The notes under the pieces: model-generated
Told to the model about the DNA's origin: nothing
Databases searched by the model: none
The model's input: the letters and a program-made list of their open reading frames with translations, nothing else
Program-made: the position numbers and the translations under genes
Part shown: piece by piece, positions 25,031-42,791 of the stretch
Numbering within the stretch: position 1 is the stretch's first letter
Layout: every line of letters starts with the position of its first letter
Assembly (NCBI GenBank): GCA_000769715.1
Contig: JROS01000028.1
Coordinates: 1 to 64,000, forward strand
Length of the DNA: 64,000 nt
Reading direction: 5' to 3'
Source of the DNA: Desulfobulbus sp. Tol-SR
GTDB lineage: Bacteria; Desulfobacterota; Desulfobulbia; Desulfobulbales; Desulfocapsaceae

Positions 25031-25222
25031 ATGGAAGACAGATGGCTATCTGTAGATGAGATCGGGGTTTATCTCGGTGTAAAGCGGGATACGGTCTACA
25101 AGTGGATCAGTGAAAAAGCCATGCCTGCCCACAAAATCGGTCGTCTCTGGAAGTTCAAGAAAGACGAAATCGACGAGTGGGTGCGTAAGGGCGGGACCGT
25201 GACCAGTGATAAGCATGACTGA
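25031..25222 (+). CDS. excisionase-type helix-turn-helix protein at head of BREX operon
   Basis: The 63-residue protein consists of one MerR/excisionase-like winged HTH (WLSVDEIGVYLGVKRDTVYK, then WKFKKDEIDEWV). The start at ATG 25031 has GGAG eight bases upstream; a GTG nine bases earlier is less well placed. Its last codons overlap the start of brxA, so it is the first gene of the operon. It is much smaller than the WYL-domain BrxR regulators described for some BREX loci. A role in controlling the operon is inferred from position and fold. Confidence 0.75.
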   Translation: MEDRWLSVDEIGVYLGVKRDTVYKWISEKAMPAHKIGRLWKFKKDEIDEWVRKGGTVTSDKHD

Positions 25223-26006: not shown

Positions 26007-26544
26007 ACGGCTTATACAGTCCTACAGCAAATACATTTCCGTCCCGTGGCGCGATGATGCCTCCGCTGCACAGCGCGTGATCTTCTGTGTCTACAACGAA
26101 AATGAAGAACGCTGGTTGCGGGCCAAAGTCGATGAATTTGAAATCGTCACCCGACAGGCAGGCCACGCATGGGCCATGTTCGACCTGACGGATACCTTTG
26201 CCATTTGGCTCGCCTCGCAACGGTATGCCAGAAGTTACTTCCAGAAGCCGCACCTGCTCTCCACGCTGCTGCCGAAATACCTCGCTTTCATCACCGAGGA
26301 GTTCGAGTCATTCCTCCAGAAGAACGATATCGGAGCTGATTCCGTCGTTGCGCTCCAGGGCGTCGGGACACTTTTCGGCTTTCTGAAAGTGAAAGAAGTC
26401 GTCGACAAGTTGGCCCCCATGGTCAAGGGGCGGCTGCTGGTCTTCTTCCCGGGCAGCTATGAAAACAACAACTACAGGCTGCTGGATGGCTATGACGGGT
26501 GGAATTATCTCGCTGTACCGATCACTGCGGACAAGGAATATTGA
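25993..26544 (+). CDS. brxB: BREX protein BrxB (DUF1788)
   Basis: The 183-residue protein fits DUF1788/BrxB: an opening IQSYSKYISVPWRDDASAAQRVIFCVYNE-type segment and the ending GRLLVFFPGSYENNNYRLLDGYDGWNYL. The latter resembles the nucleotide-binding-like end of this family. BrxB is required for phage restriction in type 1 systems and is thought to work with BrxC. It lies between brxA (overlap) and brxC (11-base gap). Confidence 0.88.
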   Translation: MSRVKRLIQSYSKYISVPWRDDASAAQRVIFCVYNENEERWLRAKVDEFEIVTRQAGHAWAMFDLTDTFAIWLASQRYARSYFQKPHLLSTLLPKYLAFITEEFESFLQKNDIGADSVVALQGVGTLFGFLKVKEVVDKLAPMVKGRLLVFFPGSYENNNYRLLDGYDGWNYLAVPITADKEY

Positions 26545-26555
26545 ACGAGGAATTG

Positions 26556-29500
26556 ATGATGAATAATCGTGACATTTACCAAAAAGATCCGGCCACCCGA
26601 AAACTGGTCAACGAGGGTGTGGCAAGCGTCAACGACGAGAAGACCAGCCAGGCGCTGGCGGTACTCCGTTACGAACTGGAGACCTTCGTTTGCGACGGCC
26701 AGTATGAAAAAGGGATGGCCCACATCCTCGAGACCTACTTGCAGAACATCGACCAGGCGCAGCAACCGGCTGTTTGGGTCAGTGGTTTTTACGGTTCAGG
26801 TAAATCGCATCTCGTCAAAATGCTCCGGGCGCTTTGGGTTGACACGGTTTTTGAGGATAGAGCTACTGCTCGAGGCATAGCCAGCCTGCCGCAAAGCATC
26901 CGTGACCACATCAAGGAGTTGAGTACCCAGGCCAAACGCCATGGAGGCTTGCATGCGGTATCTGGGACATTGGGCTCGAGCTCTCGTGACAAGTCGGTTC
27001 GAATGGCGCTGCTGGGATTAATTTTCCGATCCGCTGAGTTACCTGAGCAATACCCGATTGCCCGCTTCGTCATGTGGCTCAAGCACGAAGACATCTATGG
27101 CCAGGTTCGCGCCCATGTTGAGCAGAATGGTTTCAACTGGGACGAGGAGTTGGACAACTTTTATGTGGCAGAGGGCCTTCATGACGCTCTGGTTCAAGCC
27201 AAGCCCAAGCTCTTTTCATCGTCCGTATCCTGCGTCGAGACCCTGAACAATCTCTACCCTTACGTTCAGGACATTTCCAGCGATGACATGCTCAAGGCCA
27301 TTCGGCAGGCGCTGACGAAGGATGGCAAATTCCCGCTGACATTGGTTGTTCTTGATGAGGTTCAACAGTACATCGGCGAAGACAGCCAGCGCTCCATCGA
27401 CGTCCAGGAGGTGGTGGAAGCCTGCTGCAAGAACATTGGCGGCAAACTCCTCTTCATCGGCACCGGCCAGACCGCAGTGTCCGGCACCAGCAACCTGAAA
27501 AAGCTCGAGGGGCGGTTCACCATCCGTGTGGAACTTTCCGATGCCGATGTCGATGCGGTCATTCGCCAGGTCATTCTGGCCAAAAAACCTGAAGCGAAAA
27601 AGCCGATCGAGCAAATCATGCAAACCAACCTGGGCGAGATCTCCCGGCATCTGGCGGGCACGACCATCGGCCACAGGCAGGATGACATTCCTCATTTTCC
27701 CCAGGACTATCCGATCCTGCCGGTGCGCCGCCGTTTCTGGGAGAACACCCTCCGGGTCCTGGATCAGACCGGAACCGACAGCCAGCTTCGTAATCAGCTC
27801 AGCATGGCGCACAAGGTCATCCAGGCCAACCTGAGTGAACCTTTGGGCCATGTTGTCCCGGCCGACTATCTCTATTTCGACTCTGCCGACAAGTTGCTCC
27901 AGTCACGCATTCTGCCGCGCAAGGTTCACGAGAGGACGATGAGTTGGAACAAGGGCTCGGAGGAAGAACAGCTCATGGCGCGGGCCTGCGGCCTGGTGTT
28001 TCTCATCAACAAGCTCGCCGGCCAGAACGACGAAATCGGCATTCGGGCTACCATTGATACCCTCGCCGATCTTCTGGTCGAAAACCTTTCTCACGGCAGC
28101 AGCAGCTTGCGCAGCAAGTTGCCCAGCCTGCTCGATACATGCGAGTTGTTGATGAAGGTCGGTGATGAATACCGTATCCAGACCGAAGAGAGCGCGGCCT
28201 GGAGCGATGAGTTCCTGAGCCAGCGCTCTGCCTTGGGAAGCGAAAGCCACCGTATCGAGGCCGAACGCGACGACCGCATCCGCAAAAAATTCGGTGAGAT
28301 GGTACGCAAGCTCTCCCTGGCCCAGGGTAGCTCGAAGGTCACCCGCGATATCTATCCGGTGTTTGACGCCCAGCTTCCCACCGACGCCGATCAGCGCATT
28401 TGCGTCTGGGTTCGCGACGGATGGAGCATTGACGAAAACTCGGTGCGAGCCGATTCCCGCCAGGCCGGGAACCAATCCCCGACCGTTTTTGTGTTCATCC
28501 CCAAACGCTCGGCCGACGACCTGCGCCACTACCTCATCGATTACAAGGCCGCCAGTGCCACGCTGGATAAGCGCGGTGTTCCCAATACCCCGGAAGGCAC
28601 CGAAGCTCGTGCGGCCATGGAGACCACCAAACAAACCGCGGAAGGCAAGATCCGCGAACTTCTGGAAGAAGCCTTCTCCGGATCCCGAGTCTTTCAGGGC
28701 GGCGGCAATGAGATTATTGGGAACAATCTCCAGGAAATGACTCTCGAAGCGGCAGGAAATTCGCTGCAACGGCTCTTCCCCCAGTTTCATACCGCCGACC
28801 ACGTAGGCTGGTCCAAGGTTTATGAAAAAGCCCAGAAAGGCGCTCCCGATGCGCTCAAGGCCGTAGCTGACGAAGGCGAACCCGCCAAAAATCCGGTGTG
28901 CAAAGCCATTCTCGGTTTCATCGCCGGTGGCAAAAAGGGCGCGGACATCCGCACCCAGTTCGAGTCTTCACCCTACGGGTGGTCGCGTGACGCCGTGGAC
29001 GGCGGCCTGCAAGTGCTGTTGGTGGCCGGACTGATCCGGGCACAAGACGAGCGTGGCCAAACCCTCGACCCAAAGGAACTGGAGCGCAAAACCATTGGCA
29101 AGGTGATGTGCAAGGTGGAATCCGCCACCGTCACCACCGCCCAACGCATCCAGATCCGCAAGCTGCTGCAGAAGGTCGAGCTTTCGGCCAAGCAGGGCGA
29201 GGAGTTGGCCTATGTGCCACTGTTCCTGCAGAAAATGCTGGAGCTCGGCGACCAGGCTGGCGGCGAACCACCGAAACCGGCCCGACCGGACACCGCGTCC
29301 CTCGACGAAATCCGCCTCACAGCCGGCAATGAGCAACTGCTTGCCCTCTACAACCGGCGGGATGAACTGGGTACTCGCATCGATCACTGGACCGATCTCG
29401 TCGAGCGCATCGCCAAGCGCTGGCCGAACTGGACCGTGCTGAAACGTCTGATGGCCCACGCCTCCGGACTCCATAATGCCGAAGTCATCCTGGCCCAGGT

Positions 29501-29999
29501 CAAGACCATCGAGCAGCAGCATCAGCTTCTCGAGGAGCCGGACCTTGTCGCGCCGCTGATCGCCAACCTGACCCAGCTACTGCGCGATGAGCTCAACAAG
29601 CTCGATTGTGAATATGCCCGCCGTCACGAAAAAGGCCTCAAGCGTCTGGCAGACGACAGCAACTGGCAGCAACTGGAACCCGAGCAACGTTACGAACTCA
29701 TGTCTTCCCAGTTCCTGCATGAATCCGCCCGACCCAACGTCAAGGTCCAATCGACGAGTGACGTACTGGCCACGCTGGACCACTGCTCCCTGTCGATGTT
29801 TGCCGACCGCGTGGCGGCCATGCCGGCCCGCTTCGAAAACGTCGCCAGCGGTGCCGCCGAACTCTGCGAGCCCGAGGTTCAGTTCGTTCAGGTGCCACGC
29901 CGCACCCTCAAAACCGATGAGGAGATAGACGCCTGGGTCGAAGACGTGAAACAACAACTTAAGGGTGCCTTACAAGCAGGGCCTGTAGTGATCAGATAA
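26556..29999 (+). CDS. brxC: BREX P-loop ATPase BrxC
   Basis: This is the large P-loop protein of type 1 BREX (BrxC/PglY), 1147 residues, within the usual 1100-1250. It opens with NRDIYQKDPATRKLVNEGVASV, has Walker A GFYGSGKSH (residues 77-85) and Walker B VVLDEVQQY (264-272), followed by a long helical C-terminal part. Start codons ATG 26556 and 26559 are adjacent; GAGG at 26547-26550 suits the second slightly better. BrxC is needed for both host methylation and phage exclusion. The next gene begins 14 bases after the stop with its own strong ribosome-binding site (AAGGAGG). Confidence 0.93.
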   Translation: MMNNRDIYQKDPATRKLVNEGVASVNDEKTSQALAVLRYELETFVCDGQYEKGMAHILETYLQNIDQAQQPAVWVSGFYGSGKSHLVKMLRALWVDTVFEDRATARGIASLPQSIRDHIKELSTQAKRHGGLHAVSGTLGSSSRDKSVRMALLGLIFRSAELPEQYPIARFVMWLKHEDIYGQVRAHVEQNGFNWDEELDNFYVAEGLHDALVQAKPKLFSSSVSCVETLNNLYPYVQDISSDDMLKAIRQALTKDGKFPLTLVVLDEVQQYIGEDSQRSIDVQEVVEACCKNIGGKLLFIGTGQTAVSGTSNLKKLEGRFTIRVELSDADVDAVIRQVILAKKPEAKKPIEQIMQTNLGEISRHLAGTTIGHRQDDIPHFPQDYPILPVRRRFWENTLRVLDQTGTDSQLRNQLSMAHKVIQANLSEPLGHVVPADYLYFDSADKLLQSRILPRKVHERTMSWNKGSEEEQLMARACGLVFLINKLAGQNDEIGIRATIDTLADLLVENLSHGSSSLRSKLPSLLDTCELLMKVGDEYRIQTEESAAWSDEFLSQRSALGSESHRIEAERDDRIRKKFGEMVRKLSLAQGSSKVTRDIYPVFDAQLPTDADQRICVWVRDGWSIDENSVRADSRQAGNQSPTVFVFIPKRSADDLRHYLIDYKAASATLDKRGVPNTPEGTEARAAMETTKQTAEGKIRELLEEAFSGSRVFQGGGNEIIGNNLQEMTLEAAGNSLQRLFPQFHTADHVGWSKVYEKAQKGAPDALKAVADEGEPAKNPVCKAILGFIAGGKKGADIRTQFESSPYGWSRDAVDGGLQVLLVAGLIRAQDERGQTLDPKELERKTIGKVMCKVESATVTTAQRIQIRKLLQKVELSAKQGEELAYVPLFLQKMLELGDQAGGEPPKPARPDTASLDEIRLTAGNEQLLALYNRRDELGTRIDHWTDLVERIAKRWPNWTVLKRLMAHASGLHNAEVILAQVKTIEQQHQLLEEPDLVAPLIANLTQLLRDELNKLDCEYARRHEKGLKRLADDSNWQQLEPEQRYELMSSQFLHESARPNVKVQSTSDVLATLDHCSLSMFADRVAAMPARFENVASGAAELCEPEVQFVQVPRRTLKTDEEIDAWVEDVKQQLKGALQAGPVVIR

Positions 30000-30013
30000 A
30001 AAGGAGGCTCAAC

Positions 30014-31051
30014 ATGTTGGAAAAAATTAAATTTGAAAAATTCACAGCCTTCGAAAAACTCGAAGTGAAATTTTCTCCCGGGGTAAACATTTTCGTCGGC
30101 GAAAACGGCACCGGTAAAACCCACATCTTGAAGGCCGCCTATGCTGCCTGTGACATTGCCAAAAGCAAGGGAGGGTTTGCCGAGAAAATCAATAACGTTT
30201 TTTATCCCTCCGGTAAACAGATAGGCCGCTTGGTCAAGCGATCATCAGTGAGTAGCAATGGATCACTGGAGGTTATACGAAGGCTTGATGATGGCAAAAA
30301 GATTGCCTTGCGGCTCTCCCTTTCCAACCACACCACCAAACCCGACAAGGCAAAAATATCCGGTTCTCCAAAGGCATGGACAGAGAGCCCAATGGAAGCC
30401 GCCTATATCCCTGTCAAGGATATGATGGCAAATGCCCCTGGTTTTCGTTCACTTTATGAGGAGCGTGAAATACATTTCGAAGAAATCTATGTCGACATCA
30501 TCCGTAAAGCATTTCTCCCCTTGCTTAAAGGTCCGACGGATAAGCCTAGGAAACAGTTGCTGGAGAGTCTGCAGGAGGCCATGGATGGCAAGGTTGTCAC
30601 GAAAAATGAAGAGTTTTTTCTGCGCAGCAAGCATGGCGAACTTGAGTTCACCTTACTGGCAGAAGGCTTTCGCAAGATGGGTTTGCTCTGGATTTTGATC
30701 CAGAATGGTACCTTGTTGAATGGATCGGTACTTTTCTGGGATGAACCGGAAACCAACCTCAATCCACGCCTGATGAAAACCGTCGTGGGTATTTTGCTCG
30801 AACTCCAGAGGTTGGGTGTGCAGATATTTCTCACTACCCATGATTATGTGATTCTGAAAGAGTTCGATCTCCAGGCGAAAAAGGACGACAACATTCTCTT
30901 TCATAGCTTGTACCGGACGAAGGATACCGGTGAGATTGAAGTGGCATCGACCGATGACTATTTAAAACTCTCACCGAACGCCATCGACGACACTTTTGGC
31001 AGTATCGTTGATCGAGAAATTGAGAAATCAATGGAGGGACTTGGTAAATGA
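30014..31051 (+). CDS. AAA-type ATPase of an embedded two-gene module
   Basis: The 345-residue ATPase is of the AAA_15/AAA_21 (OLD/SMC-like) type. It shows Walker A GENGTGKT (residues 29-36), a combined Walker B SVLFWDEPETNLNP (238-251) and the switch-histidine motif LTTHDYVI (His276). The insert between the two halves of the ATPase is short and lacks a long coiled coil, and there is no C-terminal TOPRIM nuclease. It is not a core BREX gene. It overlaps the next gene (ATGA), a small protein with a nuclease-like signature, so the two probably form an ATPase-effector pair resembling, but not identical to, PARIS (AriA/AriB) or Septu. Its specific function is unknown. Confidence 0.8.
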   Translation: MLEKIKFEKFTAFEKLEVKFSPGVNIFVGENGTGKTHILKAAYAACDIAKSKGGFAEKINNVFYPSGKQIGRLVKRSSVSSNGSLEVIRRLDDGKKIALRLSLSNHTTKPDKAKISGSPKAWTESPMEAAYIPVKDMMANAPGFRSLYEEREIHFEEIYVDIIRKAFLPLLKGPTDKPRKQLLESLQEAMDGKVVTKNEEFFLRSKHGELEFTLLAEGFRKMGLLWILIQNGTLLNGSVLFWDEPETNLNPRLMKTVVGILLELQRLGVQIFLTTHDYVILKEFDLQAKKDDNILFHSLYRTKDTGEIEVASTDDYLKLSPNAIDDTFGSIVDREIEKSMEGLGK

Positions 31052-31575
31052 AGGTCGATGCCGATGGCTTCTCTTTTGATTTTACCAATGCGCTGGATGC
31101 GTTTGTTTTCGACGAGAAAGACAAGACGAAACCCACCTATCACGGCCAGCCAATGAAGGCCGTGGATATCATTGCCGAGTTCCCGGACGCTTACATCTTT
31201 GTAGAAATGAAGGATTTTAACGATCCGGCAGCCTATGACACGAAAGACTTCTCTACCGAAGAGGAACTGAAGGCCAAAAGGGCAGGCTTTAAGTGGTTGA
31301 AAAATTATCTCAAATACAAGTGCCGAGACACTTACCTTTTTCGCCATGCCGAACAAAAGGCCGAGAAACCGATTCATTACATCTGTCTGCTGACCTTTGA
31401 CAATGCCTTGAACACAGCCGTGCGAAAAACGCTTTCCAAGGAATTACCTGTCGGGCTGGCATCCAAACGATGGAAACAGGAACTCGTTAAAAGTTGCCAG
31501 GTGGTGAACGTGGCCAAATGGAATGAAAATTTTCCCAAATGGCCGGTGAGCCACGCTTCAGCCGAGGGGGCATGA
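31048..31575 (+). CDS. candidate PD-(D/E)XK-like effector, partner of the preceding ATPase
   Basis: I do not recognise this 175-residue protein as a named family. Its N-terminal half shows Asp40 in AVDIIAEFPDAYIFVEMKDF, followed by Glu53-Met-Lys55. Asp, then ExK on a beta strand about 13 residues later, is the core pattern of PD-(D/E)XK nucleases, and the residues around it alternate as expected for strands. A helical segment with conserved-looking basic residues (FKWLKNYLKYK) follows. The gene overlaps the ATPase stop by four bases and its own last codon overlaps the pglX start. A nuclease effector is therefore plausible but rests on the motif alone. Confidence 0.65.
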   Translation: MKVDADGFSFDFTNALDAFVFDEKDKTKPTYHGQPMKAVDIIAEFPDAYIFVEMKDFNDPAAYDTKDFSTEEELKAKRAGFKWLKNYLKYKCRDTYLFRHAEQKAEKPIHYICLLTFDNALNTAVRKTLSKELPVGLASKRWKQELVKSCQVVNVAKWNENFPKWPVSHASAEGA

Positions 31576-34500
31576 TGCAGCCGCTGGACAAAACATTAAG
31601 GAACCGACTCGAGCGCACCATCAGGGAGGCGCGGGATATCGCTGAGGACGCCGCTCGTGCCGCGCTGGAACAGCTTGGTGTCGGTGAAGCCGCGCCCTTT
31701 GTCCACCTGAGCGAACAGGACCGGGAACTGCGCCGTAAGCTGCGCGTCCACGGCCGCCAACTTGGTGATTCCCTGAATGGCGGCAAGATCCAGACCATGG
31801 ACTGCCTGAAAGAAGAGATCGCCTACGAGCACTGGCACCGCATGCTATTCGCCCGCTTCCTGGCGGATAACAACCTGTTGATGTATCCCGACCCGGATGA
31901 CCCCGTGGCGGTCACCCTCGAAGAGTGTGAAGACCTTGCCGCCGATGAAGGCGCGGCCAACGGCTGGGAGCTGGCCGCCCGTTTCGCCGCCCGCATGCTG
32001 CCGCAGATATTCCGGCAGGGTTCCCCGGTCTTCCAACTGGTGCTGCCACCGGAGCATCAGCACAAGCTGGAGCGCCTGGTGGCCGATCTGTCGCTGGAAG
32101 TGTTCACCGCCTCCGACAGCCTCGGCTGGGTCTATCAATTCTGGCAGGCCAAGAAGAAGGACGAGGTCAACGCCTCCGAGGTCAAGATCGGCGCACGGGA
32201 GCTGCCCGCCGTCACCCAGCTCTTCACCGAACCCTACATGGTCAGCTTTCTGCTCGACAACTCCCTGGGGGCCTGGTGGGCGGCACGGCGGCTCATCGAG
32301 ACCGACCTTAAAAACGCCAGCAGCGAAGAGGAACTACGCCGGAAGGCGGCGATCCCCGGTGTGCCGCTGGACTATCTGCGCTTTGTGCAGCAGGAAGACG
32401 GCACCTGGACACCGGCGGCCGGAACCTTCAACGGCTGGCCGAAGCAGCTTGCCGACCTGAAGACCCTCGACCCCTGCTGCGGCTCGGGCCATTTCCTGGT
32501 GGCAGCCTTGCTGATGCTGGTGCCGATGCGCATGGAGCGTGATGGTTTTTCAGCCAGGGAGGCGGTGGACGCAGTGCTGCGGGAAAACATCCATGGCCTG
32601 GAACTGGACCAACGCTGCGTGGAGCTGGCCGCTTTTGCCCTGGCGCTGACCGCATGGAAATACCCGAGCGCTGGCGGCTACCGCGTGTTGCCGGAATTGA
32701 ATGTGGCGTGCTCCGGTTTGTCGATCAGCGCCAAAAAAGAGGACTGGTTGGCGCTGGCTGGAGACAACACCAACCTGCGGATAGCACTCGAAGAGCTTTA
32801 CAAACAGTTCAAGGACGCACCGGTACTCGGCAGCCTGATCAATCCCGAAGCGAGCCTGGGCAAGGGTTCGCTGTTTGAAATGAAATGGGAAGACGTTGGA
32901 CCGCTACTCACGAAAGCGTTAGCCGAAGAGAAAGATGACGTAAAAAATGAGATGGGCGTTGTTGCAAGCGGCATTGCTAAAGCGTCTTTGTTAATGATTA
33001 AGGGTTATGATTTGCTTATTACAAACGTACCTTATCTGGTGCGTGGAAAACATAACGATGAGATAAAAAAATATCTTGAAACTCATTTTTCCGACAGCAA
33101 GCATGATCTTGCGTATGGTTTCTTGATTCGATGCCTCCAGTATTTAAATGAATCTGGAAATGCATCTGTAGTTTTACCTGAGAACTGGCTCTACATAAAC
33201 CCTTGCCAGAATTTCAGAAAACGCCTTATTGATAAATATGAACTAAATTCAATAAATCGGCTTGGCCCAGGCGCATTTCAAACGATTTCAGGAGAAGTCG
33301 TCAAAGGGCTCTTGGTGTCTATATGCAATAAAAAACCACTCCCAAGGCATCAGTTTTTTGGGATTGACGCATGGGCAGCACAAGGGCCTGACAACAAAGC
33401 TCAATCTCTCATTTATGATAGGTTGCTATGGGCTGGTCAAGCTGACCAAAAGAAAAATCCGGATTCCAGAATCAGTCTTGCCGAGATTGACGGCGGCGCT
33501 TTGCTTTCAAAATTCGCAGAAGGCCTTCATGGCCAAGGTACATTTGATAAGAATTGTTATGTATTCCAGTTCTGGGAGGTTCAGTATTTCCATGATATTT
33601 GGGAACCACAACAGTCAACACCAAATAAAAGAGAACTTTCGGATTACGGTGCTTCACAGATATTTCGGTGGGAAAAAGGAAAGGGGCTCCTATACAGTTT
33701 CATTCAACAGAAAAAGGAGACTGGTTATACATCTGGAAAATGGAAAGCAGGTGTTAACATTTGGGGAAGCTCTGGAATTGCTGTATCAGGTATAGGCTAC
33801 TTGTATATTAGACCTTATCTTGGAAAAGCATTTGATGAAAATATCGCCGTAATACATCCTCGAAATCAGATAGACCTCCCTGCAATAAGCCTTTTTGTTG
33901 AATCTGACGACTTTCAGAGGCAACTTAAGCAGATAGATAGTAATCTCAAGGCGAGTTGCAATACGCTTGTAAAGGTCCCGTTTGATTTAGAACATTGGGA
34001 GTCGATTGCAAAAAATGCTTACCCTCAGGGTCTGCCAAAACCATGCTCCCAGGATCCCTCTCAATGGATCTTCCATGGTCACCCCGCTAATAGTAGGGAT
34101 ACTCTCCAAGTCGCCACTGCCCGCCTCCTCGGCTACAGCTGGCCTGCCGAACTGGACCCGAACATGGAACTGGCTGACGAGCAGCGCGAATGGGTCAAGC
34201 GCTGCGCGTCCCTGGCGAGCTACGCCGATGATGACGGCATCGTCTGCATCCCGCCGGTGCGCGGAGAGGCTTCGGCGGCCGACCGTCTGCTGAACCTGCT
34301 GGCCGCCGCCTACGGCGATGCCTGGTCCAATGACACCCTGGCCGCGCTGCTGAAGAGCGCCGATCACGCGGGCAAAACACTGGAGACCTGGCTGCGGGAG
34401 AAGTTCTTCACCCAGCACTGCAAGCTGTTTCAGCACCGTCCCTTCATCTGGCACATCTGGGATGGCCTGCAGGGCGGCTTCGCGGCCCTGGTCAACTACC

Positions 34501-34955
34501 ACAAGCTCGACGCCAAGCTGCTGGAGACCCTCATCTACACCTACCTAGGCGACTGGATCAGCCGCCAGAAGCAGGACATCGCAAGCCACGTGGACGGCGC
34601 CCAGGAGCGTCTGGCTGCCGCCGAGACCCTCAAGAAAAAGCTGGAGCTGATCCTGGAGGGCGAAGCGCCCTACGACATCTTCGTGCGCTGGAAACCACTG
34701 GAACAACAGCCCATCGGCTGGGACCCGGATCTCAACGACGGCGTGCGCCTCAACATCCGCCCGTTCCTCACAGTGCCCGATGTCGGCAAGAAAGGCGCCG
34801 GGTGCTTATGCGACAAACCCAACATCAAGTGGGAGAAAGACCGGGGCAAGGACGTGGAATCCGCCCCCTGGTACCACAAGTTCAATGGCGACCGCATCAA
34901 CGACCACCACCTGACCCTGACCGAGAAACGTGCCGCATTTGAGGCGACGGAATAA
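31572..34955 (+). CDS. pglX: BREX adenine-specific DNA methyltransferase PglX
   Basis: PglX marks host DNA by N6-adenine methylation so that BREX ignores it. The 1127-residue protein has an N-terminal helical domain, SAM-binding motif I DPCCGSG (residues 300-306) and a motif IV of the form TNVPY (484-488) where NPPY is usual. A long target-recognition region and a helical C-terminus complete it. Starts ATG 31572/31575 overlap the previous gene; GAGGGGG lies upstream. The segment from about 32,920 to 34,110 is visibly more AT-rich than the ends of the gene, suggesting that the recognition part was exchanged by recombination. The length is normal for type 1 PglX. Confidence 0.92.
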   Translation: MMQPLDKTLRNRLERTIREARDIAEDAARAALEQLGVGEAAPFVHLSEQDRELRRKLRVHGRQLGDSLNGGKIQTMDCLKEEIAYEHWHRMLFARFLADNNLLMYPDPDDPVAVTLEECEDLAADEGAANGWELAARFAARMLPQIFRQGSPVFQLVLPPEHQHKLERLVADLSLEVFTASDSLGWVYQFWQAKKKDEVNASEVKIGARELPAVTQLFTEPYMVSFLLDNSLGAWWAARRLIETDLKNASSEEELRRKAAIPGVPLDYLRFVQQEDGTWTPAAGTFNGWPKQLADLKTLDPCCGSGHFLVAALLMLVPMRMERDGFSAREAVDAVLRENIHGLELDQRCVELAAFALALTAWKYPSAGGYRVLPELNVACSGLSISAKKEDWLALAGDNTNLRIALEELYKQFKDAPVLGSLINPEASLGKGSLFEMKWEDVGPLLTKALAEEKDDVKNEMGVVASGIAKASLLMIKGYDLLITNVPYLVRGKHNDEIKKYLETHFSDSKHDLAYGFLIRCLQYLNESGNASVVLPENWLYINPCQNFRKRLIDKYELNSINRLGPGAFQTISGEVVKGLLVSICNKKPLPRHQFFGIDAWAAQGPDNKAQSLIYDRLLWAGQADQKKNPDSRISLAEIDGGALLSKFAEGLHGQGTFDKNCYVFQFWEVQYFHDIWEPQQSTPNKRELSDYGASQIFRWEKGKGLLYSFIQQKKETGYTSGKWKAGVNIWGSSGIAVSGIGYLYIRPYLGKAFDENIAVIHPRNQIDLPAISLFVESDDFQRQLKQIDSNLKASCNTLVKVPFDLEHWESIAKNAYPQGLPKPCSQDPSQWIFHGHPANSRDTLQVATARLLGYSWPAELDPNMELADEQREWVKRCASLASYADDDGIVCIPPVRGEASAADRLLNLLAAAYGDAWSNDTLAALLKSADHAGKTLETWLREKFFTQHCKLFQHRPFIWHIWDGLQGGFAALVNYHKLDAKLLETLIYTYLGDWISRQKQDIASHVDGAQERLAAAETLKKKLELILEGEAPYDIFVRWKPLEQQPIGWDPDLNDGVRLNIRPFLTVPDVGKKGAGCLCDKPNIKWEKDRGKDVESAPWYHKFNGDRINDHHLTLTEKRAAFEATE

Positions 34956-34970
34956 CATTAGGGCTTCTCC

Positions 34971-35537
34971 ATGGGCGATTTACAAACAGTGAAAACCCTA
35001 CCCAGCTTCCTGCGCTTCCTCTTCAGCCCGTTCTTTCGTAATTGGTGGGCTGTGCTCACCGGATGCGCGTCGATCCTTGCAATGTATATCACCCCTTCGC
35101 ATGGCATTACGCTGAGTGGCGCTGCGATGATGACTGCCACTTTCGGCGTTCTCTCGCTGATCTTCATAACCCTTTCGGTCCTTGGCCAAGGCTGGCAGCT
35201 TTATATCGGGCAATTGGGCGGGGTGCAGGTAACGTCGTTTGAACGTAATCGCGATATGCCAGAGGGATGGGTCTTTGTTCTTGTCGGTGACATCGATTTT
35301 GCCGTTGGAACTGTAATCGATATCCACAAAAAGACTGGTGCGGCAGAAGTGCCCCTCTCGCTTGTTCGGATTACCTCCCGAAACTCGTGCGGTGCGTACC
35401 AGGCTACCTCCATCGGGAAGATCAATCCAACCCACATTAAAGAACATGCGGCAGGAAGTCTCCGACCGATGGATCTGATCGTTCGCACTTCCATCGACCT
35501 GCAACGCATAAAGGAGGTAGCCAATGACCTCGGGTAA
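34971..35537 (+). CDS. two-helix membrane protein, partner of TIR gene
   Basis: The 188-residue protein has no family that I recognise. Two hydrophobic helices (about residues 26-45 and 48-72, the latter including MMTATFGVLSLIFITLSVLG) form a hairpin near the N-terminus. A soluble, strand-rich domain of about 110 residues follows (GWVFVLVGDIDFAVGTVIDI, then IVRTSIDLQRI). Its final 14 bases overlap the start of the TIR-domain gene, so the two are likely made together. A membrane-disrupting or membrane-tethering role in an abortive defence is a guess. It begins 15 bases after pglX. Confidence 0.7.
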   Translation: MGDLQTVKTLPSFLRFLFSPFFRNWWAVLTGCASILAMYITPSHGITLSGAAMMTATFGVLSLIFITLSVLGQGWQLYIGQLGGVQVTSFERNRDMPEGWVFVLVGDIDFAVGTVIDIHKKTGAAEVPLSLVRITSRNSCGAYQATSIGKINPTHIKEHAAGSLRPMDLIVRTSIDLQRIKEVANDLG

Positions 35538-36480
35538 AAAGGTCTTTCTCAGCCACTCCCACAATGATAGGGAATTCGTGGAGTGCTTAGCCCGTGCCCT
35601 TATAGCCCAGGGACAAGATGTGTGGTTTGACAAGTGGGACATTCAACCAGGTGACTCGATCGTCAGCAAAATCTTCGAGGAGGGTCTCGCCAACGCCGCA
35701 GCCTTTGCCATTGTGCTCTCGAAGGAGAGTGTTCGCTCAAGTTGGGTGCGTGAAGAACTGAACGTGGCGACGATACGGCGCATTGAGGACCTGGTTCGTG
35801 TTGTCCCCATTCTCAAGGAAGATGTAGAAATCCCGACTGCACTTCGCGCCCTCCACTGGGTGGACATGCGGACTGACTTTGACGGTGGAGTGAGGTCTAT
35901 TCTCAATGCGATTGCTGGGATATCGGATAAACCGCCACTAGGCGAAACTCCAGCACACTTGCAGTTGATTGTACAGCCCGTTGCCGGATTATCTCGGCTG
36001 GCTTTGACAGTTGGGCTTTATCTCGTTCGAGCAACAGATGTTGATGAACCATTCATGCGGGCAGTCCGAAATGTAGACCTTGCTGAGGCTCTTCATCTTA
36101 CCCCAACTGAACTCAATGACGCAGTGGATGAATTGGAGTCACAAGGACTCGCTGAAACGAACAAGGAAATAGGTACACACCCCTATGATTTCGGATTTGT
36201 CGAGGCAACATATCTCCTCTTCCATGCCCTCAGTGAATTTCTGGAGTACTCCCCAAGCGAGGACGTAAAGATAGTGCTCAATGCAATAGCCGCCCTTAAG
36301 AACGCGGAGGGGCCAGAGCTCCAAAGCCATACACAGTTGTCAATTGGCCGATTGAACAGAGCGGTGGCGTATATCAAGGATCATGGCTACGCTAAAGTAT
36401 TACTTGCCATTGGAACTGCCCCTTATGGATTCAAGAATGCTTCTGCTACGCGAGAAACACGTCAAGCGTCACTCGAATAA
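35524..36480 (+). CDS. TIR-domain protein with duplicated C-terminal domain
   Basis: The first 130 residues form a TIR domain: KKVFLSHSHNDREFVECLA, the WFDKWDIQPGDSI segment, and SSWVREEL with Trp74 and Glu78 in the position of the catalytic glutamate of TIR NADases. Enzymatic NAD+ cleavage, as in Thoeris and other TIR defences, is thus likely. Residues about 157-229 and 237-309 align without gaps at an offset of exactly 80 (LNDAV/LNRAV, IGTHPY/IGTAPY), forming a tandem repeat with a winged-helix-like look. AAAGGAGG precedes the ATG. The gene overlaps the two-helix membrane protein gene upstream. Confidence 0.82.
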   Translation: MTSGKKVFLSHSHNDREFVECLARALIAQGQDVWFDKWDIQPGDSIVSKIFEEGLANAAAFAIVLSKESVRSSWVREELNVATIRRIEDLVRVVPILKEDVEIPTALRALHWVDMRTDFDGGVRSILNAIAGISDKPPLGETPAHLQLIVQPVAGLSRLALTVGLYLVRATDVDEPFMRAVRNVDLAEALHLTPTELNDAVDELESQGLAETNKEIGTHPYDFGFVEATYLLFHALSEFLEYSPSEDVKIVLNAIAALKNAEGPELQSHTQLSIGRLNRAVAYIKDHGYAKVLLAIGTAPYGFKNASATRETRQASLE

Positions 36481-36521: not shown

Positions 36522-37802
36522 ATGATTAAACATTTAAAAATGACCAATGTCGGGCCGGCAGCAAAGATGGAGTTGGAATTCGGCAAGCGACTGAACCTGC
36601 TCACCGGCGATAATGGACTGGGGAAGAGTTTTTTGCTGGATATTGCCTGGTGGGCACTGACACGCAGATGGCCTGCCGAAATTAACCAGAAACTAACCGC
36701 AGGAAAAAAGGCGCTCCCTGCTGCTGAAGGGAGAGCCAAAATCAGTTTCTCTTTTTCTGGCAAGAGCAAGGAAGAGAGTTATGAAAGCAGTTATCTTCGC
36801 AAGGAACAAGCCTGGACCGGACGGCCAGGAAGACCAGCAAATCCTGGATTGGTACTTTATGCTATGTCGGATGGTAGCTTTGCAGTCTGGGATCCAGATC
36901 GTAATTATTGGCGTACACAAGGTGGATTAGATGTTCAAGATAGGGTACCTGCCTATGTGTTTAGTCCTATGGAGGTCTGGGATGGACTTCCTGGGCAGGG
37001 TAGCACTTGGCTCTGCAATGGGCTCATTCGGGACTGGGCCGGTTGGCAGAAGGAGAAAGGAAGACCATTCAGTCAGTTAAAAAGTGTGTTAAAGGTGCTT
37101 TCTCCCTCGACCAAAGAAACCTTGGAGCCTGGCGATTTGACACGGATCAGTTTGGATGATGTGCGTGACATGCCAACCATACGCATGCCCTATCGGCAAG
37201 ATGTGGCTGTTGTGCATGCGTCGTCTGGTATGCGCCGTATCATGGCATTGGCCTACTTTCTAGTATGGGCATGGGAAGAACACAAACAAGCAGCCAAACA
37301 AATCGGTGAACCTGCTACGAAGCAAATCACCTTTCTTATTGACGAAATCGAGTCCCATCTGCATCCGAGCTGGCAGCGAAGCATTGTTCCGGCTCTGCTC
37401 TCTGTCATGGAGAAATTAACAAGAAACGCTGAGGTCCAACTGATCACTGCTACGCATTCTCCCTTGATAATGGCCTCTGTGGAACCAGTTTTCGACTCTC
37501 AAAAAGATGCTTGGTTTGATTTGGATCTCACCAAGGACAAAGTCACCCTCGCTAAGCGGCAGTTTGTACGCCAAGGTGAAGTATCTCGATGGCTAATGAG
37601 CGAAGCGTTTGACTTAGGCAGCGCCCGATCGTTACCGGCTGAAAATTTACTACGGCAAGCAGCTGAAATTTTATCCGAAAAAGTGATTGACCATGAGCGT
37701 GCAAAAGAGCTGGATGCTCAGTTGCGCGGCCTGCTAGGTGATACCGATCCTTTCTGGATTCGCTGGCGATATGTCGGTGAGAAGCAGGGGTGGTTGAAAT
37801 GA
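36522..37802 (+). CDS. Septu-like AAA ATPase (PtuA-like)
   Basis: The 426-residue ATPase of the SMC/OLD-like group has Walker A GDNGLGKS (residues 29-36), a signature-like ASSGMRRIMALAY (233-245), Walker B FLIDEIESHLHP (271-282) and the switch motif TATHSPL (309-315). With the HNH gene that overlaps it, it has the two-gene design of Septu (PtuA ATPase plus PtuB nuclease). Septu ATPases form filament-like or horseshoe complexes that control the nuclease. Here the identification is by architecture, not by alignment. AAGGAG precedes the start, 41 bases after the TIR gene. Confidence 0.75.
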   Translation: MIKHLKMTNVGPAAKMELEFGKRLNLLTGDNGLGKSFLLDIAWWALTRRWPAEINQKLTAGKKALPAAEGRAKISFSFSGKSKEESYESSYLRKEQAWTGRPGRPANPGLVLYAMSDGSFAVWDPDRNYWRTQGGLDVQDRVPAYVFSPMEVWDGLPGQGSTWLCNGLIRDWAGWQKEKGRPFSQLKSVLKVLSPSTKETLEPGDLTRISLDDVRDMPTIRMPYRQDVAVVHASSGMRRIMALAYFLVWAWEEHKQAAKQIGEPATKQITFLIDEIESHLHPSWQRSIVPALLSVMEKLTRNAEVQLITATHSPLIMASVEPVFDSQKDAWFDLDLTKDKVTLAKRQFVRQGEVSRWLMSEAFDLGSARSLPAENLLRQAAEILSEKVIDHERAKELDAQLRGLLGDTDPFWIRWRYVGEKQGWLK

Positions 37803-38398
37803 TACCTGTCGTAGCCCAACCTGAGCCCCGAACATTCGAAACTAAAGTCCGGAGGAAGGGCTTAGCCCATCTTGCCCAAAAAGGATATGCGCTGGATCAA
37901 CCTTTACCTCCAAGGGCAGATATTAACCCATATTGGCGCGACTGTCTAAACGATCTACATAAAGTTTATGGTGGTGTCTGTGCCTATCTCTGCGTTTTTT
38001 TTGAGCGTGTCATGGGAGGTGGTAGCGTTGACCACTTTATTGCCAAGTCAGCACATGCTGGGCTAGCATATGAATGGAATAATTATCGTCTTGTCTGTTC
38101 AACGATGAACAGCCGCAAACGTGATTACGCCGACGTTCTAGACCCTTTTTTTCTTGCTCCCGAGCTGTTTCGGCTTCAGCTTTCCACTGGACATATTTAT
38201 CCAAATCCGAACTTGGATATCAGGGCTATGCGCATCGTTGAAGAAACCATAGATCGACTTGGACTAGATGACCCTCAATGTCGCGAGTTACGTGCGCGAT
38301 GGTATCAGGACTATCTTGAGTATGGATTGCCTGCTGACTATATGAAAAAAAAGTCACCTTTCGTCTGGCAAGAAGCCAACCGTCAGGGGCTGCTATGA
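37799..38398 (+). CDS. HNH-type endonuclease (PtuB-like)
   Basis: The 199-residue product has an HNH-like core, GGVCAYLCVFFERV followed by SVDHFIAKS (Asp78-His79), EWNNYRLVC (Asn94/95) and MNSRKRD (Asn104). The final catalytic position is Asn rather than His. Cys61, Cys65 and Cys100 may hold a structural metal. The ATG at 37799 lies inside the stop of the ATPase gene, and its own stop overlaps the pglZ start (ATGA). It is the probable DNA-cutting effector of the Septu-like module. Confidence 0.78.
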   Translation: MIPVVAQPEPRTFETKVRRKGLAHLAQKGYALDQPLPPRADINPYWRDCLNDLHKVYGGVCAYLCVFFERVMGGGSVDHFIAKSAHAGLAYEWNNYRLVCSTMNSRKRDYADVLDPFFLAPELFRLQLSTGHIYPNPNLDIRAMRIVEETIDRLGLDDPQCRELRARWYQDYLEYGLPADYMKKKSPFVWQEANRQGLL

Positions 38399-40749
38399 GA
38401 ATCTGTGAATGCTTGATTAAAGCCGTCCGCGATGCCGCCGTCTTCAACCCCGAGGTTCAGGTGGCTCCAGCCTGTATTCTGTGGCCGGATCGTGACCGTC
38501 AATGGGAAGCCGTCATACCCATTCTTCAGGCCGAACTGCCTGAACTCATGATCCTGGGCGATTACGCGCCCGATAAGCGTATTGGGCCTGCCATCTGGTT
38601 GCGTTGCGTGATTGCCGGTCGTGCCGGGGATATTTCACTGCCCAAGGACCGGACACCGATTTTTTATCTCCCCGGCGTCAGCCGCCAGGATCTGCGGGCT
38701 ATTGAAACTTGCCCGGATCACCTTAAAGCCCTTGCCGAACTGCAATACCGGGGCGTTATCTGGTCGCAAATCAATGCGAAAGACTGGACGATCCTGGCCT
38801 ACCTGAAATCGGACCAGGGTGGGCTTGGGCTGGATGTGGCACAGGACAACGATACCAAGAATGCCATGCAGCTCGCGTTGTACCGGCTCCTTGACGAGGA
38901 TGTCTCCTTACTGAAAGGTAAGCGTCTTAACAAGGACTATTTCAACACCCTGCTGACCGGCGGCGACCCGATTCGCGACCTGTTGCAATGGCTCAATCAG
39001 GGGGATGCATTCCAGGCGGGTCGTGGCGAGAACGAATGGCAAGCCTTTGTCCAAATCTGCAAATCTCAATTGGCCTTTAACCCGCAGAATGAAGGCATCC
39101 TGGCGGGCAGTGTAAGGCTCGCAGAGCGCGTTGGTCCGTGGCATGCAGTCTGGGAGCGCTACTATGAGGCCCCTCAACGCTACCCCAACATCCCGGCGCA
39201 GATCAGGAAGTGCCGACCTCCGATCGACACTATCTTCTGGCACACGGGAGATGGATCTTTCGACGGCTGGCCACAATGGAATGATGACCAGGAGAGAAAC
39301 CTGCACCGAGATCTGATGGCCCTGGCCAAAGCACCTGCTCACGATGCGAGAGCAAAGATCAAAGAACTTGAAAAGCAGCACGGTCGCAGGCGCACTTTGG
39401 TATGGGCTGAACTGGGCGATGCGCCCCTGGCCTGCGCCTTGGAACATCTGGCTACCATCGCCGAGATCACGACAACCGCCTTTGCGGCGGGGACAGCGGA
39501 AGAACTCGCGACGGGATATTGCAATCATGGATGGCGGGTCGATGACGGACTGGTTCGAGCATTGGCGCAGGTCAATAATTCTGCCGATTTTGAAGCAGTG
39601 ACTACGGCTATCCGATCCGTTTACCTGCCGTGGGTAGAAGAATCAGCCCGTTATCTCCAGAAGTTGGTTGACGGTGCGTCTTACCCCGGGGGCACATGCC
39701 TGACGGCAAAGGCACCGCAGTTCGGCCCCGGTGACTGTATCCTGTTCGTCGACGGCCTTCGGTTCGATGCTGGAAAGCGCTTGGTTGAATCTTTGGAGAC
39801 ATGCGGGCTTGAGGTCTCCGAAGATCCGGCATGGGCAGCCCTGCCCAGCGTAACCGCGACCGGCAAAGCGGCAGTCACCCCGGTCAGAGACAGGATTCGG
39901 GGTGAGTATGGCAGTCCTGATTTTGAGCCGTCTGTAGCAGACACCGGTCAGTCATTAAAGGGTGGCTACCACCTGAAGAAATTGCTGACCGACGCGGGAT
40001 GGTCGATCCTTGAACGCTCTGCTGATGGCGATGGCCAAGGCATGGCTTGGTGTGAATTTGGGGACCTCGACCATGAAGGTCATGACCGTGGGTGGAAACT
40101 TGCCAAGCACATCGACGCCCTGATCCTGGAAATCAGAGACCGTATCACGGAGCTCCTGGCTGCAGGATGGAAGCGTGTTCGGGTTGTGACAGACCATGGC
40201 TGGTTGTTGCTGCCCGGTGGCTTGCCAAAAATCGAACTTCCCAGCGCTTTGGCGGACAACAAGTGGGGACGCTGCGCCTCCTTGAAGCCGGGGGCCACTA
40301 CCGAGGAGCGGCTTTATCCCTGGTATTGGAATCCGAACCAATACTTCGCCCTCGCTGACGGCGTCAGCTGCTTCAAGAACGGCGAAGAGTACAGCCATGG
40401 CGGATTGAGCCTGCAGGAATGCCTGACACTGCATATAACGGTAACACAAGGCGCTTCCGCTCAGGCGGCGACATCCGTCGCATTCACCGATGTGGTGTGG
40501 AAGGGGTTGCGCTGCACTGTCGCCGTGGATGGCAACTTCTCGGGTTTATCACTTGATGTTCGCAGCCAGGCCGGCAATGCCTTGTCCACTGTCGTCGTCG
40601 GCGTCAAACCGCTCAAAGACAACGGAACAGCCTCCGTGGTCGTCGAAGACGAGGACATGGAGGGGCGAGAAGCCTTTGTGGTTTTGATTGATTCCAATGG
40701 ATCGCTGGCCGCGCAAATCGCCACGGTAATTGGTGGAGCTAAACCATGA
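38395..40749 (+). CDS. pglZ: BREX alkaline-phosphatase-like protein PglZ
   Basis: PglZ, the hallmark of all BREX types, is 784 residues here. The C-terminal half has the alkaline-phosphatase-like metal-site motifs: ILFVDGLRFDAG (residues 449-460), VTDHGWLLLPGG (598-609) and YSHGGLSLQEC near 663. The N-terminal half is a helical domain of the type 1 subfamily. It overlaps the HNH gene upstream and brxL downstream by four bases each, so it is translated in register with both. In other systems PglZ is a metal-dependent nuclease/phosphodiesterase; its role in BREX is still being worked out. Confidence 0.93.
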   Translation: MRICECLIKAVRDAAVFNPEVQVAPACILWPDRDRQWEAVIPILQAELPELMILGDYAPDKRIGPAIWLRCVIAGRAGDISLPKDRTPIFYLPGVSRQDLRAIETCPDHLKALAELQYRGVIWSQINAKDWTILAYLKSDQGGLGLDVAQDNDTKNAMQLALYRLLDEDVSLLKGKRLNKDYFNTLLTGGDPIRDLLQWLNQGDAFQAGRGENEWQAFVQICKSQLAFNPQNEGILAGSVRLAERVGPWHAVWERYYEAPQRYPNIPAQIRKCRPPIDTIFWHTGDGSFDGWPQWNDDQERNLHRDLMALAKAPAHDARAKIKELEKQHGRRRTLVWAELGDAPLACALEHLATIAEITTTAFAAGTAEELATGYCNHGWRVDDGLVRALAQVNNSADFEAVTTAIRSVYLPWVEESARYLQKLVDGASYPGGTCLTAKAPQFGPGDCILFVDGLRFDAGKRLVESLETCGLEVSEDPAWAALPSVTATGKAAVTPVRDRIRGEYGSPDFEPSVADTGQSLKGGYHLKKLLTDAGWSILERSADGDGQGMAWCEFGDLDHEGHDRGWKLAKHIDALILEIRDRITELLAAGWKRVRVVTDHGWLLLPGGLPKIELPSALADNKWGRCASLKPGATTEERLYPWYWNPNQYFALADGVSCFKNGEEYSHGGLSLQECLTLHITVTQGASAQAATSVAFTDVVWKGLRCTVAVDGNFSGLSLDVRSQAGNALSTVVVGVKPLKDNGTASVVVEDEDMEGREAFVVLIDSNGSLAAQIATVIGGAKP

Positions 40750-42791
40750 TTGAAATGGACCGGATCGACAAAAAGGCGGCCTCATCGCTGGAGGGGTATT
40801 TGGTCCGGAAGGATCTGGTTCGGACGTTCAGCCGCCAGTTTCCGGTGCCGACGTATGTCGTCGAGTTTCTGCTCGGCCGCTACTGCGCCAGCACCGAGCA
40901 GGACGAGATCGATGAAGGTCTTGAGATCGTCCAGAGACAGCTCAGGTCACGAACGGTCAAAGCCGGAGAAGAAGAGCTCTTCAAGGCACGGGCCAGGGAA
41001 AACGGCGAGGTCAAAATCATCGATCTCATTACCGCTCGCCTGGATGCCAAGACCGACTCCTATATCGCAACACTACCCAGTTTGCGACTGACCGATGTCC
41101 GCATTAGCCCCGAACTGGTGAATGAACATGAACGGATGCTGACGGGCGGATTTTATGCTGAAATTGCGATAGAATATGATTCCGTCATCGCCCAGGAAAA
41201 ACCATCTCGGCCATTTGGGGTGAGGTCTTTGCGGGAGATCCAGTTATCGAAACGGGATGTACTCGACAACCTGGCCGAGGCCCGTAAAGCATTTACCACT
41301 GAAGAATGGAAGGTATTCCTGCTTCGTTCTATAGGGATAGAACCGGCTGGATTGTCTGAGCGACAACGTGATGCCTTGATGTTGCGGATGGTTCCCTTTG
41401 TTGAGCGTAACTACAATCTGGTGGAACTCGGCCCTAGGGGAACTGGCAAAAGCCATCTCTTCCAGCAGGTTTCTCCGTATGCGCATTTGATTTCCGGCGG
41501 TAAGGCAACGGTCGCCCAAATGTTTGTCAACAACGCGTCCGGTCGGCGTGGGTTGGTCTGCCAATACGATGTAGTCTGTTTTGATGAGATTTCCGGTATC
41601 TCCTTTGATCAGAAGGATGGTGTAAACATCATGAAGGGATTCATGGAGTCCGGGGAATTCAGCCGTGGCAAGGAGAGCATCCGCGCCGATGGCAGCATCG
41701 TTCTGGTCGGCAATTTCGATGTCGATGTTGAGCATCAGCAACGTATCGGGCACTTGTTCGGTCCCATGCCGCCGGAGATGCGAGACGACACCGCCTTCAT
41801 GGATCGTATCCATGCGTTTCTGCCTGGATGGGATGTCCCCAAAATCAGTAAAGAACTGTTGACGAATCACTTCGGTCTCGTCAGCGATTTCTTGTCCGAG
41901 TGCTGGAGCCAGCTTCGCAATCAAAGCAGAATAAGCGTACTGCAAAACCGGGTGTTTTTCGGAGGTGCTCTTTCCGGGCGCGATACGAACGCGGTCAATA
42001 AAACCGTGAGCGGCTTGCTTAAACTCCTCTATCCCGGTGAGGTTGAGGCAGCCGACGAGGATGTCGAATGGGCCGTCCATATAGCCATGGAGGCAAGACG
42101 TCGGGTTAAAGAACAACAGAAACGCATCGGCGCCGCCGAATTCCGCAACACCCACTTCAGTTATGTGGTGGGTGCTGATGGCGTCGAGAAGTTTGTTTCG
42201 ACCCCTGAATTACAAAGCGAAAACAACATTGGCTGTGATCCTCTTGAGCCTGGTCAGGTTTGGACCATCTCACCGGGTGGTGGAGAAGAGCATCCCGGAC
42301 TCTACCGCATCGAGATAAATGAAGGCCCTGGTTCGAGCGTCAAAATCCTCAATAAACCGGTGCCACCAGCATTTAAGGAAAGCATGGGATACGCCGAGCA
42401 GAACCTCTACGCTCGGTCTATGCAACTGGTCGGTGACAAAGACCCTCGACACCATGAATTCACCGCGCAACTCCGAGCCTTCGATGCTTCGAAGTCCGGC
42501 GCAAAGCTCGGCATGGCATCACTGATTGCGCTCTGCACAGCCTTATTGAAGAAAAGCGTACGCGGCGGTCTGATTATCGTGGGAGAGATCAATCTAGGCG
42601 GCTCTATCGAGTCGATTCACAACCCAGTCACCATTGCCGAGATTGCGGTTGAGAAAGGTGCTTCGGCGCTGTTGATGCCGGTGGCCTGCCGTCGGCAGCT
42701 CTTTGATCTGTCGGATGATATGGCAACAAGGATCGACATTCAGTTTTATTCCGATGCCAGGGATGCCCTCCTGAAGGCAATGGTAGAGTGA
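40746..42791 (+). CDS. brxL: BREX Lon-like AAA+ protein BrxL
   Basis: The 681-residue protein has an N-terminal domain (about 1-215), an AAA+ core with Walker A GPRGTGKSH (residues 229-237) and Walker B VCFDEISGI, and a C-terminal Lon-protease-like fold (SGAKLGMASLIALCTALL, then GGLIIVGEINLGGSI). The position expected for the Lon catalytic serine reads AKLG rather than PSAG, in line with reports that BrxL is a DNA-binding motor rather than an active protease. It is the last gene of the type 1 BREX operon. Confidence 0.93.
   Translation: MIEMDRIDKKAASSLEGYLVRKDLVRTFSRQFPVPTYVVEFLLGRYCASTEQDEIDEGLEIVQRQLRSRTVKAGEEELFKARARENGEVKIIDLITARLDAKTDSYIATLPSLRLTDVRISPELVNEHERMLTGGFYAEIAIEYDSVIAQEKPSRPFGVRSLREIQLSKRDVLDNLAEARKAFTTEEWKVFLLRSIGIEPAGLSERQRDALMLRMVPFVERNYNLVELGPRGTGKSHLFQQVSPYAHLISGGKATVAQMFVNNASGRRGLVCQYDVVCFDEISGISFDQKDGVNIMKGFMESGEFSRGKESIRADGSIVLVGNFDVDVEHQQRIGHLFGPMPPEMRDDTAFMDRIHAFLPGWDVPKISKELLTNHFGLVSDFLSECWSQLRNQSRISVLQNRVFFGGALSGRDTNAVNKTVSGLLKLLYPGEVEAADEDVEWAVHIAMEARRRVKEQQKRIGAAEFRNTHFSYVVGADGVEKFVSTPELQSENNIGCDPLEPGQVWTISPGGGEEHPGLYRIEINEGPGSSVKILNKPVPPAFKESMGYAEQNLYARSMQLVGDKDPRHHEFTAQLRAFDASKSGAKLGMASLIALCTALLKKSVRGGLIIVGEINLGGSIESIHNPVTIAEIAVEKGASALLMPVACRRQLFDLSDDMATRIDIQFYSDARDALLKAMVE

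Follow-up and report, generated by a model that had tools for sequence, protein, structure and literature searches.

A TIR-Winged-Helix Protein Coupled to a Two-Helix Membrane Protein between pglX and pglZ of a BREX Operon, a Possible Thoeris-Like Signaling Pair

Introduction

Type II Thoeris systems are comprised of TIR proteins and a two-helix TM-macro effector (PMC11204291; PMC12847820). His-ADPR activates the TM-macro effectors, which perturb membranes, and type IV Thoeris relies on a caspase (PMC12847820; PMC11204291). In TM-macro ThsA the first transmembrane helix is less hydrophobic than the second (PMC11204291), a layout that matches that of the membrane protein described here. A published parallel for the location of the genes described here is PARIS, which is embedded in a Salmonella BREX locus (PMC11341690). 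A 2026 NAR survey of effectors accessory to BREX has no mention of TIR in its main text.

The DNA analyzed, referred to as the window, is a stretch of 64,000 nucleotides from Desulfobulbus sp. Tol-SR (contig JROS01000028.1, positions 1 to 64,000). It contains a gene for a small membrane protein directly followed by a gene for a TIR protein. An initial annotation of the window regarded this combination as unlike any Thoeris design. That view is not sustained, because type II Thoeris has the TM-macro design and a relative of the window TIR protein adjoins such a system.

Results and Discussion

A cargo site within a type I BREX operon

The pair is located in a plus-strand operon of type I BREX, with the order BrxA, BrxB, BrxC, HEC-02A/B, PglX, membrane protein, TIR protein, PtuA/PtuB, PglZ, and BrxL. 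The features that surround the pair are:

25206 to 31575, plus strand: BrxA, BrxB, and BrxC with embedded HEC-02A/B (PADLOC for BrxA, BrxB, and HEC-02)
31539 to 34955, plus strand: PglX, the BREX methyltransferase and upstream neighbor (Eco57I/N6_Mtase; homologous PglX in related BREX loci)
36522 to 38398, plus strand: embedded Septu, with PtuA at 36522-37802 (PADLOC E 1.7e-188) and PtuB at 37790-38398 (E 1.1e-71)
38395 to 42791, plus strand: PglZ (38395-40749; PADLOC E 0) and BrxL (40746-42791; E 2.5e-301), the downstream end of BREX

BrxC was assigned from its size, its position, and its match to related BREX loci, and the real start of PglX is probably near 31572. Short gene overlaps are usual throughout this operon, in which HEC-02 and Septu are embedded as two modules beyond the pair.

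Wherever the pglX-pglZ gap could be read in other BREX loci of this order, the pair was absent and the site had other cargo or nothing. For example, the gap encodes Schlafen/AlbA_2-type proteins in locus L059 (with L060 and L067 similar in appearance), other gene pairs of ATPase type in L062 and L063, and a DUF3644/helicase group plus Septu in L061; Pfam scans of this cargo covered L059 and L061. Locus L066 (G406:C2) has no sizeable gene in the gap and is a natural empty cargo site. The search match to pglZ in L066 reads through one in-frame TAA. In L002, the one other locus with the pair, the cargo differs beyond the pair, with a further gene pair before pglZ. Because the cargo in this gap varies among related BREX loci, the pair is, as judged from this comparison, removable cargo that lies outside BREX proper and not a BREX core component. 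The initial annotation had placed the pair inside BREX, which agrees with its location between pglX and pglZ.

The other embedded modules recur elsewhere. Septu (PtuA/PtuB) is also found directly before pglZ in L061 and L002. HEC-02A/B (30014-31575) is a candidate defense pair embedded between BrxC and PglX. HEC-02A of genome G357 (L059) is 96% identical to that of the window versus only 63% for PglX, and this far higher identity suggests that the HEC-02A/B pair spread recently.

The two genes as a unit

The features of the pair are:

34971 to 35537, plus strand: two-helix membrane protein gene, 188 amino acids (open reading frame; purifying selection versus the L002 homologue)
35043 to 35102, plus strand: predicted membrane helix 1, residues ~25-44 (hydropathy; helix in a low-confidence AF2 model)
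35118 to 35204, plus strand: predicted membrane helix 2, residues ~50-78 (Kyte-Doolittle, GES)
35214 to 35534, plus strand: soluble C-terminal domain, residues 82-188, a candidate receptor domain (dN/dS; no sequence match)
35511 to 35518, plus strand: Shine-Dalgarno sequence AAGGAGGT of the TIR gene, inside the membrane gene (sequence; kept in L002)
35524 to 36480, plus strand: TIR-tandem winged-helix protein, 318 amino acids (open reading frame, Pfam, AF2, structural matches)
35536 to 35925, plus strand: TIR domain, residues 5-134 (PF13676, VIA-align)
35755 to 35757, plus strand: codon of Glu78, the catalytic-type glutamate in SSWVREEL (alignment to AbTir and relatives)
35995 to 36477, plus strand: two winged-helix domains, residues ~158-231 and ~244-318 (AF2, structural match, repeat)

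Between the pglX stop and the start of the membrane gene are 15 bases. The initial description of a 188-residue protein with two adjacent N-terminal helices, whose gene overlaps the TIR gene by 14 bases, agrees with both the coordinates and the hydropathy. The TIR gene begins inside the final 14 bases of the membrane gene, with the strong Shine-Dalgarno sequence 5 bases 5' of the start codon.

Only two of the 258 genomes of the order carry the membrane gene, that of the window and G451 (MAG RIFOXYD12_FULL_56_24; L002). In the latter the same TIR gene directly follows the membrane gene, and the location, order, 14-base overlap, and Shine-Dalgarno sequence are all as in the window, so that the association of the membrane protein with TIR, which the initial annotation had put up for checking, recurs in the only other carrier. 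Searches of plasmids, phages, and viral contigs gave zero matches to the membrane protein, and searches of 395 genomes of the phylum gave, the window itself aside, only chance-level matches. A match in L040/L070 (E 0.0017) was rejected as a relative; it is compositional, to a Bax1-I membrane protein.

The membrane gene is 80% identical to its L002 homologue, with 24, 18, and 60 differences at codon positions 1, 2, and 3 and an overall dN/dS of 0.19. An antisense open reading frame (34998-35642, 214 amino acids) is broken in L002 and was rejected as a gene. The bias of differences toward third positions, the dN/dS, and the broken antisense frame indicate that the membrane gene is truly coding. 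Both genes of the pair are under purifying selection between the window and L002, and on this comparative evidence they are a conserved, translationally coupled unit. No RNA family or tRNA is involved at the locus, both of which were scanned for.

Nucleotide identity between the window and L002 is ~68-86% as one block from the 3' end of pglX through both genes of the pair, versus mostly 50-74% in ptuAB and pglZ. The two genes of the pair have diverged by 0.6 and 1.1 at synonymous sites, whereas ptuAB and pglZ are saturated. The higher identity and unsaturated divergence suggest that the pair and the end of pglX share a more recent history than the rest of the locus.

The membrane protein

The membrane protein has two N-terminal membrane-type helices followed by a soluble part of ~105 amino acids. 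Helix 1 is only moderately hydrophobic (best Kyte-Doolittle means of 1.23 over 19 residues and 1.78 over 15 residues) and weaker than helix 2, which is strongly hydrophobic over residues about 46-78 (best 19-residue mean of 2.09; GES 45.8). On the GES scale, helix 1 is prominent as well (about 29). The loop between the helices has zero charges and the flanks on both sides have some, a pattern that suggests a cytoplasmic location for both ends of the protein.

The soluble domain is the most conserved part of the protein (dN/dS 0.11 versus L002). Profile scans of the membrane protein gave no Pfam, NCBIfam, or PADLOC family matches, and the best match of its profile to PDB sequences had an E value of 0.9, about 1. 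The AlphaFold2 model from two sequences had a pLDDT of 45 and a pTM of 0.24, with pLDDT below 50 in the soluble domain. Comparisons by hhalign with the ThsA TM-macro, Cap15, and two-helix L015 proteins yielded nothing, and these comparisons are weak with so few sequences. Two close homologues give neither a usable structure nor a sensitive profile, and the domain may have a known receptor fold.

The TIR-winged-helix protein

The TIR domain matched PF13676 (TIR_2; E 4.8e-29), and matches to PF01582 and ThsB_TIR were also above the cutoff. Its fold is nearest to those of the bacterial proteins BtTir (Z 14.3), PdTIR (14.2), and AbTir (13.8) in VIA-align. The claim that the TIR domain keeps the glutamate expected for NAD+ hydrolysis holds up: a phmmer alignment pairs Glu78 with the catalytic glutamate of AbTir, and none of the 13 aligned sequences that cover this site deviates from it. 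Phe8 is present in 12 of the 13 TIR-winged-helix sequences that cover this site, including that of the window, with L005 alone having tyrosine. Phenylalanine at this position is usual in TIR NADases (PMC11204291). Judged from these residues, the TIR domain is of the canonical NADase type. The nearest PADLOC models were PDC-S66 (E 1.6e-18) and bSEFIR (4.9e-14), with matches within or near the TIR domain.

The helix-helix-helix-strand-strand pattern of a winged helix occurs twice in the C-terminal region of the AF2 model (mean pLDDT 70). The second winged helix resembles that of the MarR-family structure 6pco (Z 11.7; rmsd 1.9 over 69 residues), and a chain of the ScpAB complex is included in the Foldseek list; these matches come from the model of the TIR protein, in which the winged-helix part was searched with the rest. 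The two C-terminal halves resemble each other in a profile comparison, consistent with an internal repeat, and Pfam MarR_2 matched the region below the cutoff (E 3.4e-4). The protein therefore belongs, on the basis of modeled structure, to a family of TIR-tandem winged-helix proteins, for which we found no name of its own in the literature searched. Neither the winged helices nor the embedded HEC-02 and Septu modules figured in the initial annotation.

Relatives of the TIR-winged-helix protein

Relatives were traced in plasmids, viral contigs, and genomes; most of the plasmid and viral contexts are represented by one example each. In L072 the relative is directly after genes for a ThsB TIR protein, which has tyrosine at the active site, and a ThsA TM-macro protein (PF20016 E 6.8e-44; PADLOC ThsA 2.1e-66). 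The C-terminal halves of the L072 relative and the window protein are related (hhalign probability 96.6%, E 6.7e-10). On a Sinorhizobium plasmid (L004) the order is TIR, caspase, TIR, and TIR-winged-helix protein. In genome G296 (L015/L071) a different two-helix membrane protein is directly upstream. No obvious effector partner accompanies the relatives in L003, L006, L074, and L075.

Several contexts deserve mention in their own right. A Methylorubrum plasmid (L007, 2563-6951) has genes for a TIR protein, a SLOG cluster 2 protein, another TIR protein, and a TIR-winged-helix protein in that order, possibly a further Thoeris variant. The L071 operon (G296:C27, 4221-9464), which encodes an LmuA/MBL-like protein, an E2-E1-JAB fusion, the two-helix membrane protein, and the TIR-winged-helix protein, has the appearance of an undescribed defense operon that combines ubiquitin-like and TIR parts. 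On a viral contig (L076, 3716-6918) a CD-NTase-like gene and a patatin-like gene, as judged by eye, diverge from a TIR-winged-helix gene whose product has an N-terminal extension of ~95 amino acids.

Possible function of the pair

The best explanation, which we consider quite possible while stopping short of calling it probable, is that the two proteins are a Thoeris-like signaling pair, in which the TIR protein would derive a signal from NAD for an effector, the membrane protein, with an unrecognized receptor domain. The pair would then be a self-contained antiphage cargo module. Infection would be sensed by the TIR protein, probably via its tandem winged-helix tail, and the TIR domain would convert NAD+ to a nucleotide signal. 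The small protein, presumably an inner-membrane protein whose ends face the cytoplasm, would bind the signal with its soluble domain and cluster, and its two-helix part would breach the membrane, stopping the infected cell. An effector is the most likely role for the membrane protein by analogy with the TM-macro effectors of type II Thoeris, the caspase of type IV, and the contexts of the TIR-winged-helix relatives. The sequence features consistent with this explanation are the intact TIR domain with its catalytic-type glutamate, the tandem winged helices, the membrane-type helices, the tight coupling, the conservation, and the cargo position. Supporting context comes from the relatives, whose neighbors include a TM-macro effector, a SLOG protein, a caspase, and a different two-helix membrane protein. 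Against it, the soluble domain had no sequence resemblance to known nucleotide receptors in Pfam, PADLOC, NCBIfam, and PDB sequence scans, and the pair was found in two genomes only. Furthermore, the TIR-winged-helix protein of L072 is a third gene beside an apparently complete Thoeris pair and may be extra there.

The relatives that have no obvious effector gene suggest that the TIR protein may act alone, and its canonical NADase-type active site, with Phe8 and the catalytic-type glutamate, would suit an effector that kills by depleting NAD+. The membrane protein would then be a sensor of infection at the membrane, or an anchor or gate that releases or clusters TIR. Although NAD+-depleting TIR effectors are well known (PMC12847820), we regard this as rather unlikely because relatives adjoin effectors of nucleotide-activated kinds, such as TM-macro proteins and caspases. 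It is improbable that the membrane protein is instead an antitoxin-like immunity partner, made first and keeping the coupled TIR protein inactive at the membrane until infection. An upstream partner gene with overlap or coupling is a layout common in toxin-antitoxin pairs, and the upstream position, 14-base overlap, and translational coupling are found in both genomes. However, short overlaps are ordinary across this operon, and other TIR-winged-helix relatives are without this membrane protein, which indicates that such TIR proteins do not generally need it as an inhibitor. The extreme rarity of the membrane protein and the varied cargo of the pglX-pglZ gap would fit two separate passengers, adjacent in a cargo hotspot by history and not working together. 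Yet both genomes keep the order and overlap of the pair while other cargo differs, and both genes are under purifying selection, making this the least probable of the explanations considered.

A more specific version of the signaling-pair explanation, which must be considered doubtful, is that the pair represents a new Thoeris type, with an effector that receives a TIR-made nucleotide through a receptor domain not yet described, a TIR protein controlled by tandem winged helices, and a role as a BREX-embedded backup. If the signaling-pair explanation is right, TIR nucleotide signaling in bacteria would gain another effector and, probably, another receptor domain, TIR-tandem winged-helix proteins would be interchangeable alarm enzymes that recur next to different effectors, and the pglX-pglZ gap of BREX would hold abortive modules that can act once BREX is blocked.

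Comparison with known systems

Among described systems, the pair shares with type II Thoeris a TIR enzyme and a partner that has two membrane helices at its N terminus and a C-terminal domain in the cytoplasm, and the L072 Thoeris locus includes a TIR-winged-helix relative. The window TIR is a ThsB-type TIR with the catalytic glutamate, and both the window membrane protein and its L002 homologue have two N-terminal membrane helices, the first of them weak. However, the window membrane protein has no PF20016 or PADLOC ThsA match in scans identical to those that detect the ThsA of L072, and its soluble part is ~105 amino acids versus the 183 positions of the PF20016 model. The window TIR also differs in its tandem winged helices and in having Phe8 where the main subfamily of type II ThsB typically has tyrosine. 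With the macro domain missing, the pair is, from its sequence, not a member of type II Thoeris.

The ten proteins scanned with Pfam around the TIR protein had no match to SIR2 or SLOG, the domains that mark the ThsA of type I Thoeris, and the scanned neighbors had no match to Peptidase_C14, the caspase-like effector of type IV. The L004 locus, with TIR, caspase, and TIR genes, has a TIR-winged-helix relative, whereas the window has no caspase and its effector would be the membrane protein. On these scans the pair is neither type I nor type IV Thoeris.

The 2TM-beta (Cap15-like) effectors of CBASS and Panoptes resemble the membrane protein in size, two N-terminal helices, and a small C-terminal domain. 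No sequence or profile similarity of the membrane protein to Cap15_CD_rec examples was seen, with no PF18153 match and an hhalign probability of 0.5% against two Cap15 proteins, a weak comparison from a query of two close sequences. Pfam and PADLOC found no CD-NTase among the scanned genes of the locus. The models nearest to the window TIR in PADLOC are those of bSEFIR and PDC-S66, for which we know of no membrane partner. PARIS (ariAB) of Salmonella D23580 is likewise an independent defense module embedded in type I BREX (PMC11341690), whereas the cargo in the window is a TIR-membrane protein pair followed by Septu.
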